From Halobacterium jilantaiense (GTDB lineage: Archaea > Halobacteriota > Halobacteria > Halobacteriales > Halobacteriaceae), in assembly GCF_900110535.1 (NCBI RefSeq), contig NZ_FOJA01000001.1:1116001-1180000 (forward strand): a stretch of DNA of 64,000 bases. Reading direction: 5' to 3'. The notes under the pieces were generated by a model, which saw nothing but the letters and a program-made list of their open reading frames with translations, did no database searches and was not told the origin of the DNA. Both the position numbers and the translations under genes were made by a program. Below, piece by piece: positions 38,420 through 50,281 of the stretch. Positions within the stretch are counted from its first letter, which is position 1. Each line of letters begins with the position of its first letter.

Positions 38420-38435
38420 AACTCGGAAGCGAGTT
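38420..38435. promoter_or_regulatory. TrmB-like operator upstream of ppsA
   Basis: The perfect palindrome aACTCG-gaag-CGAGTt lies 69-84 nt before the ppsA ATG and about 30 nt upstream of its TATA-like box (38467-38475). It fits the TACT-N7-GAGTA motif known for TrmB in Halobacterium except at the outermost base on each side. The same core stands before pyk at 48490-48505. Confidence 0.6.
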
Positions 38436-38503
38436 AGACGTGTCAGTCGTCCCGAGGCGTTCGGAATCTTCTTAGGGGCTTTCCCCGACTGTCTACCTGC
38501 CAC

Positions 38504-40756
38504 ATGGCTGTACGCTGGCTGGAAGACGTACGGGCCGACGACATCGACAGCGTCGGCGGAAAAGGGGCGTCGCTCGGCGAGCTCACGGACGCCGGGCTCC
38601 CCGTCCCACCGGGCTTCGTCGTGACCGCCGGCACCTACCGGACGTTCATCGAGGAAGCGGGCATCGACCAGGAACTGTTCGACGCGGTGGACGTCGACGC
38701 CGAGGACTCCGCCGCGCTCGCCGACGCCGAAGCGCGAGCGAAAGACCTCATCCTGAACACGGAGTTCCCCGAGGAGCTCCGCGAGAACATCCTCTCGTCG
38801 TACGACGCGCTCGACGACGGACAGGCGTTCGTCGCCGTGCGGTCGTCGGCGACCGCCGAGGACCTTCCGGACGCGAGCTTCGCCGGCCAGCAGGAGACGT
38901 TCCTGAACATCACCCGCGAGGGGCTGCTGGACCGCGTGAAGCGCTGCTGGGCGAGCCTGTTCACCCAGCGCGCCATCTACTACCGACAGGAACAGGGCTT
39001 CGACCACGACCTCGTGAACATCGCGGTCGTCGTCCAGCGCATGGTCGACGCCGAGAAGTCCGGCGTGATGTTCACCAGCCACCCGTCGACGGGCGCTCAC
39101 GAAGCCATCATCGAGGCCGCGTGGGGGCTCGGCGAGGCGGTCGTCTCGGGCTCGGTCTCCCCGGACAACTACCACGTCGACCGCGATACCGGCGCGGTCG
39201 AGGAGGTGACGGTCGCGGACAAGAAGGTGATGCACGTCAAGGACGCCGAGACGGGCGAAACCGTCGAACGCGAGGTCCCCGACGAGAAGCGAACCGAGCG
39301 CGTGCTCTCCGACGACGAGATCACGGACCTCGTCGCCATCGGCGAGCGCGTCGAAGACCACTACGGCACCCCACAGGACGTCGAGTGGGCGATGGTCGAC
39401 GGCGACGTCTACATGCTGCAGTCCCGCCCCATCACCACCATCGACGACGAGGAAGACATGACTGACACCGACAGCGGCGACGGCGAAGCGCTCGTGAACG
39501 GTCTCGGCGCGAGCCCGGGGGTCGCCTCCGGGCCGGTTCGCGTCGTCACCAAGCTCGACCAGCTCGACAAAGTCGGGGACGGCGACATCATCGTCACGGA
39601 GATGACCACCCCGGACATGGTGCCGGCGATGAAGCGGGCGGCCGGCATCGTCACCGACGAGGGCGGCATGACGAGCCACGCCGCCATCGTCTCCCGCGAA
39701 CTCGGCTGCCCCGCAGTCGTCGGCGCGCAGGACGCGAGTACGACGCTCGCCGACGACCAGATTGTCACCCTCGACGGCGACCGTGGCGTCGTCCGCGAGG
39801 GCCGCGTGGAGACCGACGAGGAACGCGACCCCATCGAGGAGGCCCGGCCGAAGACGCCCGTGAAGCCGATGACCGCCACCGAGGTCAAGGTGAACGTCTC
39901 CATCCCGGAGGCCGCCGAGCGCGCCGCCGCGACGGGTGCCGACGGCGTCGGCCTGCTCCGCATGGAGCACATGATTCTCTCCACGAACAAGACCCCCGAA
40001 CGGTACATCGAGGACCACGGCGAGGACGCCTACGTCCAGGAGCTCGTGGAGGGCATTCAGGGCGTCGCAGAGGAGTTCTACCCCCGTCCGGTGCGCGTCC
40101 GCACGCTCGACGCGCCGACCGACGAGTTCCGCCAGCTCGAGGGCGGCAACGACGAACCCCACGAACACAACCCGATGCTCGGCTACCGGGGCATCCGCCG
40201 CAGCCTCGACCGGCCGGACGTGTTCAAGCACGAGCTGGAGGCGTTCCGCGAGCTCTACGAGATGGGCTACGACAACGTCGAAGTGATGTTCCCGCTCGTG
40301 AACGACGCCGAGGACGTCGCTCGCGCCCGGAACCTCATGGCCGAGGCCGGCATCGACATCGAGAAGCGCTCGTGGGGCGTGATGATCGAGACGCCGGCGT
40401 CGGCGCTCTCGATGGACGAAATCGCCGAGGAGGGGGTCGACTTCGCGAGCTTCGGGACGAACGACCTCACGCAGTACACGCTCGCCGTCGACCGCAACAA
40501 CGGCAACGTCGCCGACCGCTTCGACGAACTCCACCCCTCGGTGCTGCGGCTCATCGAACACACCATCGAGGTGTGCCGCGAGCACGACGTCGCCACCAGC
40601 ATCTGCGGGCAGGCCGGCTCGAAGCCCGACATGGTGGACTTCCTCGTGGAGACCGGCGTCTCCTCCATCTCCGCGAACATCGACGCCGTCCGCGACGTCC
40701 AGCACGAGGTCAAGCGCGTCGAGCAACGCATGCTCCTCGAATCCGTCCGGGAGTAG
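38504..40756 (+). CDS. ppsA: Phosphoenolpyruvate synthase
   Basis: PpsA makes PEP from pyruvate, ATP and water, the entry to gluconeogenesis. The 750-residue protein has the N-terminal ATP-grasp domain (SVGGKGASLGELTDAGLPVP, VRSSATAEDLPDASFAGQQE), the mobile phosphohistidine domain with His392 in GGMTSHAAIVSRELG, and the C-terminal PEP-binding barrel (GTNDLTQYTLAVDRNNGNVA, ICGQAGSKPD with the catalytic Cys). No intein or truncation. A TrmB-like palindrome in the promoter suggests control opposite to pyk. Confidence 0.97.
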   Translation: MAVRWLEDVRADDIDSVGGKGASLGELTDAGLPVPPGFVVTAGTYRTFIEEAGIDQELFDAVDVDAEDSAALADAEARAKDLILNTEFPEELRENILSSYDALDDGQAFVAVRSSATAEDLPDASFAGQQETFLNITREGLLDRVKRCWASLFTQRAIYYRQEQGFDHDLVNIAVVVQRMVDAEKSGVMFTSHPSTGAHEAIIEAAWGLGEAVVSGSVSPDNYHVDRDTGAVEEVTVADKKVMHVKDAETGETVEREVPDEKRTERVLSDDEITDLVAIGERVEDHYGTPQDVEWAMVDGDVYMLQSRPITTIDDEEDMTDTDSGDGEALVNGLGASPGVASGPVRVVTKLDQLDKVGDGDIIVTEMTTPDMVPAMKRAAGIVTDEGGMTSHAAIVSRELGCPAVVGAQDASTTLADDQIVTLDGDRGVVREGRVETDEERDPIEEARPKTPVKPMTATEVKVNVSIPEAAERAAATGADGVGLLRMEHMILSTNKTPERYIEDHGEDAYVQELVEGIQGVAEEFYPRPVRVRTLDAPTDEFRQLEGGNDEPHEHNPMLGYRGIRRSLDRPDVFKHELEAFRELYEMGYDNVEVMFPLVNDAEDVARARNLMAEAGIDIEKRSWGVMIETPASALSMDEIAEEGVDFASFGTNDLTQYTLAVDRNNGNVADRFDELHPSVLRLIEHTIEVCREHDVATSICGQAGSKPDMVDFLVETGVSSISANIDAVRDVQHEVKRVEQRMLLESVRE

Positions 40757-48151: not shown

Positions 48152-48442
48152 CTAGGTGCCGTCTTCGACGAGTCTCCCGAGTTCGTCGACGTGCGTGGCT
48201 TCCATGGTCTGGAGTTCGATGCCGTAGCGTTCGGCGGCGATGGAGGCTTCCAGGGCCGCCTGTCGGTCCGTGGCGTCGAAGAGGAGGAGGACGTCGCGCT
48301 CGCCGAGGAGGACATAGGCGTCGCGGAGGTCGCAGTCGCGGGTCTCGAGGTCCTGACGGAGGTCGCCCCAGATGGACGCGAGTTCCTGGGCGTTCTGGAA
48401 CTGGCCGGTCTCGACGTTCGCGAACGCGGCGTAAGTCGGCAT
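48152..48442 (-). CDS. GYD-domain-like small protein
   Basis: The 96-residue protein has the dimeric alpha/beta-barrel pattern of GYD proteins: an opening MPTYAAFANVETGQFQNAQE and a central DLRDAYVLLGERDVLLLFDATDRQAAL. These small proteins are of unknown function. It is divergent from pyk; the TrmB-like palindrome at 48490-48505 lies upstream of both genes. A minus-strand T-rich box (gttttgtc) lies near 48467-48474, about 28 nt before the ATG. Confidence 0.75.
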   Translation of the reverse strand: MPTYAAFANVETGQFQNAQELASIWGDLRQDLETRDCDLRDAYVLLGERDVLLLFDATDRQAALEASIAAERYGIELQTMEATHVDELGRLVEDGT

Positions 48443-48489: not shown

Positions 48490-48505
48490 AACTCGGTTTC
48501 GAGTG
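48490..48505. promoter_or_regulatory. TrmB-like operator in the pyk-GYD promoter region
   Basis: aACTCG-gttt-CGAGTg is a perfect palindrome in the core ten bases, ending about 10 nt before the T-rich box (48515-48521) of pyk and 43 nt before its ATG. The same core stands before ppsA. Confidence 0.6.
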
Positions 48506-48547
48506 AATAGCGTGGGTTTTTGCCGGGCGACGGTGTACGACTCGCCA

Positions 48548-50281
48548 ATGAGGAACGCGAAAATCGTCTGCACGCTCGGCCCGGCGACCGACGACGAGGC
48601 GTCGGTTCGAGCGCTCGCGGACGCGGGAATGACGGTGGCGCGCATCAACGCGAGCCACGGCGGCCCGGCGGACCGACGGGCGCTCGTCGAGACGACGCGC
48701 GCTGTCGACGAGGAGACCGAGAAGCCGCTCGCGGTGATGCTGGACACGCAGGGCCCGGAAGTCAGGACGGCGGAGACCGACGGCGAGGTCGAGATTCGAG
48801 CGGAGACCGAGGTCGCGTTCGCCGAAGGGGAGACGACGACGCCCGAGCGCGTCGGCCTCTCGACGAGCATCGCGGCGGCCGAACCCGGTGACAGAGTGCT
48901 CCTAGACGACGGCCGCATCGAGGCCGTCGTCGACCGCGTGGAGGGCGAGACGGTCTACGCCGAGGTGCTGTCCGGCGGCAGCCTCGGCAGCAGGAAGGGC
49001 GTGAACGTCCCGGGCGTGGAACTCGGACTGGACGTCGTCACGGAGAAGGACCGCCGCGACCTCGAACTCGCGGCCGACCTGGACGTCGACTACGTCGCGG
49101 CGAGCTTCGTCCGGGACGCCGAGGACGTGCTTGCCGTGAACCGTGTGTTGGAGTCGTTCGGTGCGGACATCCCCATCGTCGCGAAGATCGAGCGCGCCGG
49201 CGCGGTCGAGAACCTCGACGGCATCGTGGAGGCCGCCAGCGGCGTGATGGTGGCTCGCGGCGACCTCGGTGTCGAGTGCCCGATGGAGGACGTACCGATG
49301 ATTCAGAAGCGCATCATCCGGCAGTGCCGGGACGCGGGCGTCCCCGTCATCACGGCGACCGAGATGCTGGACTCGATGGTCCACGCCCGCCGCCCGACTC
49401 GCGCGGAGGCCAGCGACGTGGCGAACGCCGTCCTCGACGGCACGGACGCGGTGATGCTGTCCGGGGAGACGGCCGTCGGTGACCACCCGACGCGCGTGGT
49501 GGAGACGATGGACCGCATCGTGCGCGAGGTCGAGGACAGCGAGGAGTACGCCGAACTCCAGGAGCAGCGCGTGCCGACTGCGGACGGCACGGCGAAGACA
49601 GACGCGCTCGCGCGGTCGGCGCGCTACCTCGCGCGGGACGTCGACGCGAGCGCGGTCGTGGTCGCCTCCGAGTCCGGGTACACGGCGCGGAAGGCGGCGA
49701 AGTTCCGGCCGAACGTCCCCGTGGTCTGTGCGACGCCCTCGCACGGCGTCAGGCGACAGCTCGCCCTGAACTGGGGCGTCCACGCGAACTACGCCGAGGT
49801 CGCGGAGGGCGACGCCACGACGGTCGTGGAGCGCGCCGTGCAGGCGGCCGTCGACTCCGGCGAGGTCGAGAGCGGGGACACCGTGGTCGTGCTGGTCGGC
49901 ATGATGACGGACTTGGAGGGCGCGAGCACGACGAACACGCTGAAAGTCCACGTCGCGGCGGAGACGCTCGTCGCCGGCCAGTCGGTGGTCGACGGCCGGA
50001 CGACCGGTCGGGCGTTCCGCGTGGGCGACGGCGACCTCTCGGATGCCCCCGAGAACGCCGTGTTGCTCCTGGAACCCGGTTTCGACGCCGAGTTCGAGGG
50101 GGACCTCTCGAAGATTTCGGCCATCGTCAGCGCGGACTCCGGGCTGACGGGCTACCCCGCCGTCGTCGCGCGAGAACTGGGTGCACCCATGGTCGGGAAC
50201 GCCGACGTGGACGCGGTTCCGGACGACCGACTCGTCACCGTCGACGGCGAGCGCGGCGTCGTCTACCGGGCCGAGCAGTGA
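48548..50281 (+). CDS. pyk: Pyruvate kinase with C-terminal PEP-utiliser domain
   Basis: Pyk converts PEP and ADP to pyruvate and ATP. The 577-residue protein has the barrel signatures NAKIVCTLGPAT, MVARGDLGVECP, the catalytic Lys in IVAKIERAGAVENL and ASDVANAVLDGTDAVMLSGE. After the usual C-terminal domain (about 475) it carries an extra domain (LLEPGFDAEFEGDLSKISA, TGYPAVVARELGAPMVGN), a phosphohistidine-like mobile domain without an obvious His at the active position. The ATG at 48548 leaves a T-rich box 27-33 nt upstream. Confidence 0.95.
   Translation: MRNAKIVCTLGPATDDEASVRALADAGMTVARINASHGGPADRRALVETTRAVDEETEKPLAVMLDTQGPEVRTAETDGEVEIRAETEVAFAEGETTTPERVGLSTSIAAAEPGDRVLLDDGRIEAVVDRVEGETVYAEVLSGGSLGSRKGVNVPGVELGLDVVTEKDRRDLELAADLDVDYVAASFVRDAEDVLAVNRVLESFGADIPIVAKIERAGAVENLDGIVEAASGVMVARGDLGVECPMEDVPMIQKRIIRQCRDAGVPVITATEMLDSMVHARRPTRAEASDVANAVLDGTDAVMLSGETAVGDHPTRVVETMDRIVREVEDSEEYAELQEQRVPTADGTAKTDALARSARYLARDVDASAVVVASESGYTARKAAKFRPNVPVVCATPSHGVRRQLALNWGVHANYAEVAEGDATTVVERAVQAAVDSGEVESGDTVVVLVGMMTDLEGASTTNTLKVHVAAETLVAGQSVVDGRTTGRAFRVGDGDLSDAPENAVLLLEPGFDAEFEGDLSKISAIVSADSGLTGYPAVVARELGAPMVGNADVDAVPDDRLVTVDGERGVVYRAEQ

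Follow-up and report, generated by a model that had tools for sequence, protein, structure and literature searches.

Two palindromes in the promoters of ppsA and pyk, which encode phosphoenolpyruvate synthase and pyruvate kinase in Halobacterium jilantaiense, are very probably operators of TrmB, a haloarchaeal regulator that senses sugar and is encoded in the same genome; this protein would activate ppsA, repress pyk and be released by sugar. Control by TrmB is known biology, predicted here for a further Halobacterium. Both sites lie in the window, the whole 64,000-nucleotide stretch that was analysed (positions 1,116,001-1,180,000 of the main contig of the 2.95-Mb genome, G000), and the features concerned are as follows, in window positions.

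38420-38435 (14-mer 38421-38434), no strand: predicted TrmB operator of ppsA, AACTCGGAAGCGAGTT, a perfect palindrome, AACTCG-gaag-CGAGTT
38468-38474, plus strand: TATA-like element of ppsA, CTTCTTA, placed by eye and conservation
38504-40756, plus strand: ppsA, phosphoenolpyruvate synthase (TIGR01418 equivalog, 993 bits, cut-off 740)
48490-48505 (14-mer 48491-48504), no strand: predicted TrmB operator of pyk, AACTCGGTTTCGAGTG, with a perfect 14-mer core
48515-48521, plus strand: T-rich TATA-like element of pyk, GGTTTTT, placed by eye and conservation
48548-50281, plus strand: pyk, pyruvate kinase (TIGR01064 equivalog, 507 bits, cut-off 306)

A perfect copy of the palindrome reported before ppsA in the first-pass annotation does lie there, and the ACTCG-N4-CGAGT core is repeated before pyk as it had said, within AACTCG-gttt-CGAGTG. 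Its naming of both genes was confirmed by the curated models, which score above cut-off; the genes start with ATG at 38504 and 48548, and the ppsA protein shares 95% identity with that of Halobacterium sp. TGN-42-S1 (G003) and 88% with that of H. salinarum DSM 3754 (G006); G003 and G006 were matched to these strains through identity of the sequence surrounding ppsA. A BRE-like CGGAAT stands directly 5′ of the ppsA TATA-like element. With TATA assignments made by eye and conservation rather than from mapped transcription starts, the gap between operator and TATA-like box is 32 nt at ppsA versus 9 nt at pyk, so that the spacing of about 30 nt annotated for ppsA is right and does not extend to pyk. 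Both sites fit the consensus TACT-N7-8-GAGTA except at the outer bases (AACT-N7-GAGTT at ppsA, AACT-N7-GAGTG at pyk). The annotation had taken the outermost base to set these sites apart from those of H. salinarum, but the distinction is not a real one, as H. salinarum's own sites, AACTCGGTTCCGAGTA (ppsA) and AACTCAGTATCGAGTA (pyk), vary at this base, which is mostly A or T. Each operator lies in a divergent intergenic region; the minus-strand neighbour of ppsA encodes a small membrane protein, and that of pyk, with which it has the operator-bearing region in common, a GYD-domain protein (PF08734, window 48152-48442).

The search for a TrmB homologue suggested in the first-pass annotation returned one full-length protein of 355 aa (G000:C1:2642917-2643978), the only full TrmB in the genome. 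It combines the PF01978 DNA-binding and PF11495 sugar-binding domains and is an NCBIfam NF047392 (TransRegTrmBHalo) equivalog, scoring 580 bits against a cut-off of 500. The protein is 83% identical to its H. salinarum orthologue (VNG1451C), keeps with the same spacing the DNA-contact Y and D and the sugar-binding G, E and D residues named in PMC4158304, and has full-length TrmB (3qph) as its best match among solved structures. Binding of TrmB at its own promoter is reported for H. salinarum but does not define the system, since the H. hispanica protein reportedly does not regulate itself. In 11 Halobacterium genomes, among them H. salinarum, a motif search that may pass over weaker sites found no operator match with fewer than three mismatches in the 200 nt before trmB.

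We compared the ppsA, pyk and trmB loci in relatives drawn from a set of 40 genomes. The ppsA operator is present in all ten readable trmB-bearing Halobacterium genomes, with the core at -80 to -83 and the 16-mer starting at -81 to -84. The pyk operator is present in 11 of 11, with the core at -56/-57 and the 16-mer starting at -57 or -58; in H. salinarum a single core position is mismatched. The half-sites are all but constant across these genomes while the spacer and surroundings drift, and wherever a TATA-like box is recognisable in these trmB-bearing genomes the operator ends 30-32 nt before it at ppsA and 9-10 nt before it at pyk.

Within the genus, a TrmB orthologue is missing from two genomes, G001 and G010: their best whole-protein matches (E 1.8e-14 and 3e-11) cover the N-terminal part only, and PF11495 finds weak partial matches only. 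At the syntenic place of trmB the upstream neighbours are kept in both, including a PAC2-family gene and a lipoprotein-like gene, and trmB is absent with no remnant found, which in sequence terms looks like the clean loss of a global regulator from this sublineage. The operator is missing from the ppsA and the pyk promoters of both genomes, and their TATA-like elements are kept as in trmB-bearing relatives. A search of their ppsA, pyk and pgk promoters for a substitute palindrome common to all three found none in either genome.

The same association extends across the genus and family. Allowing at most one mismatch, the ppsA operator occurs in 13 of 14 genomes with trmB versus none of eight without it (Fisher P 3e-5) and the pyk operator in 12 of 14 versus none of seven (Fisher P 3e-4), both P values ignoring shared ancestry; on the ppsA tree trmB changes state about three times, two of these changes being forced by well-supported branches. 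Some more distant trmB-bearing genomes have no site at pyk or ppsA, as is expected from published rewiring. As a control we took 60 palindromes made from permuted ACTCG, and only ACTCG itself was found in these promoters (22 promoters, with zero for all others). Judged from these genomes, the operator depends evolutionarily on the regulator, being absent from both promoters in all examined trmB-less members of the genus and family. Together, the full-length regulator in the genome, the same offset in H. salinarum and the tracking of trmB by the operator across genus and family support the TrmB reading that the annotation had put forward.

Counting alone is little proof, being barely above chance. 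The core does occur in no other promoter region of the window, as had been noticed: only two perfect copies exist in the 64 kb, and none of the 63 called window genes has a further copy with 0-1 mismatch in the 100 nt before its start, save the divergent neighbours that share the two sites. The accompanying claim of about one copy per million positions was wrong, the genome scan giving 34 copies in 2.95 Mb (11.5 per Mb) versus the approximately 3 implied by that formula, probably because CTC, GAG, TCG and CGA codons favour the core. Dinucleotide shuffles of the window lead one to expect 0.40 copies, and at least two copies turn up in 8% of them. The genome-wide site list, for which the stretches around the matches were read, depends on a simple, home-made, codon-based gene finder, checked on the window, which places 27 of the 34 copies inside genes; closer reading adds one, for about 28. 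The copy at C1:269214, apparently intergenic, was rejected because it falls in a well-scoring reading frame.

These abundances speak for chance, in which a palindrome without function, made common by GC content and codon usage, happened to fall in two promoters. Given that 34 copies, most of them intragenic, weaken any argument from counts, the case was judged by position and comparison, and on those grounds an accident of this kind is very improbable. The site holds a fixed position with near-invariant half-sites in more than ten species while spacer and flanks drift, it is absent where trmB is absent, and no permuted palindrome behaves alike. Occurrence at random through the genome had been named beforehand as telling against an operator; the 34 copies are there, yet the fixed promoter position and covariation with trmB stand against chance. 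It is also very improbable that the palindromes are real operators read by another regulator, for example a shorter TrmB-like protein with the DNA-binding domain only. Candidates exist in this genome, where about a dozen other proteins match PF01978 above cut-off, but the full TrmB alone covaries with the operator; other TrmB-domain proteins are still encoded in G001 and G010, where the operator is missing, and the motif and both targets match published work on H. salinarum TrmB. We regard as very improbable a role mainly in serving the divergent minus-strand genes, whose starts lie 63 and 84 nt from the sites. Spacing is held relative to the starts and TATA boxes of ppsA and pyk, and in H. 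salinarum the operator is present although a MetG-like C-terminus (...THEDSEPGTKVM) can be read directly before pyk there, in place of the GYD gene.

The TrmB reading can be put as a mechanism by analogy with H. salinarum, where others showed both binding and the direction of regulation. In the reports on that species, TrmB is described as binding TACT-N7-8-GAGTA and, without glucose, activating ppsA and repressing pykA, both genes responding within 5 minutes of glucose addition (PMC3794607, PMC4158304). In H. jilantaiense, TrmB would bind TACTCG-N4-CGAGTA-like sites under scarcity of glucose or glycerol, presumably in dimeric form. At ppsA, where about 30 nt separate the site from the TATA element downstream, binding would activate transcription; at pyk, where about 10 nt do so and the site abuts the BRE, binding would hinder assembly of the basal factors and so repress. 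Sugar would release TrmB, lowering ppsA and raising pyk, and this opposite response would avoid a futile PEP/pyruvate cycle. The operator-TATA spacing may act sterically, the simplest reading being that distant upstream sites activate and near, BRE-abutting sites repress.

Known systems resemble this one to different degrees. The H. salinarum regulator has the same two targets, the same core and nearly the same offsets; it belongs to another species, the outer bases vary, and the core is sharpened here to ACTCG-N4-CGAGT, consistent with the published consensus. The orthologous TrmB of Haloarcula hispanica binds the ppsA and gapII promoters without glucose, and the ppsA/pykA control point is reported absent and not used there (PMC10817205), whereas strong, conserved predicted operators stand in both promoters here. 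According to its authors the motifs of most repressed H. hispanica genes overlap the BRE (PMC10817205), which agrees with repression from a near site. TrmBL1 of Pyrococcus furiosus and Tgr of Thermococcus kodakarensis are TrmB-family regulators that work alike, being released by sugar and activating gluconeogenic or repressing glycolytic genes according to operator position (PMC4158304), but their TGM motif is TATCAC-N5-GTGATA. Their repressing sites lie downstream of TATA, and an older model has repressors bind downstream of the promoter (PMC4158304), whereas the pyk site lies just upstream, abutting the BRE. This departure from the published model was counted against the TrmB reading, as were the mostly intragenic location of the core and the trmB promoter without such a palindrome.

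Two points are modestly new: regulator and operators are missing together, and the spacing differs between ppsA and pyk. By comparison rather than counting, control of the PEP/pyruvate node through TrmB, so far described for a single species, emerges as a nearly genus-wide trait with a sharpened operator, and the close relatives without either offer a ready-made comparison for rewiring of the gluconeogenesis switch. We lean towards a joint proposal in two parts. The G001/G010 sublineage would have lost trmB together with the ppsA, pyk and pgk operators, with the core promoters left in place, and would be a natural knock-out with a PEP/pyruvate switch that works without TrmB; and the sign of regulation in Halobacterium would be set by how far from TATA an operator stands that is upstream in every case, not by its placement upstream versus downstream: 9-10 nt would go with repression, at pyk, and about 25-35 nt with activation, at ppsA and probably also at pgk and gapII.

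Listing the genes downstream of each genomic copy, a check that the annotation had proposed, showed that most copies are intragenic and that three of the six intergenic ones precede ppsA, pyk and pgk. The pgk gene (phosphoglycerate kinase, PF00162) has a perfect TACTCG-N4-CGAGTA outside the window (G000:C1:39684-39699), 34-35 nt before a TATA-like element in H. jilantaiense, G003 and H. salinarum; several other Halobacterium genomes have it in degenerate form, and trmB-less G001 and G010 have no such site. ACTCG-N4 is the only gapped palindrome common to the ppsA, pyk and pgk promoters of this genome. Among central carbon promoters these three sites are perfect and that of gapII (type II glyceraldehyde-3-phosphate dehydrogenase), TACTCGAAACCCGGTA, about 25 nt before a TATA-like element, is imperfect. 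We do not claim the other three intergenic copies as TrmB sites: one lies near a gene at C1:1106038, one precedes a small Hsp20-like gene (C1:2364653), and the third, at G000:C1:1085995-1086010, precedes by about 48 nt the gene for glycerol-1-phosphate dehydrogenase (NF002022), which draws on the triose-phosphate pool. An AT-rich palindrome of another sequence, TACTTACTGATTAGTA / TACTTACTGGTTAGTA, stands at two places 1.2 kb or less apart (G000:C1:662790-662805 and 663989-664008), around two genes whose products resemble TetR-type regulators, and is possibly their own operator.
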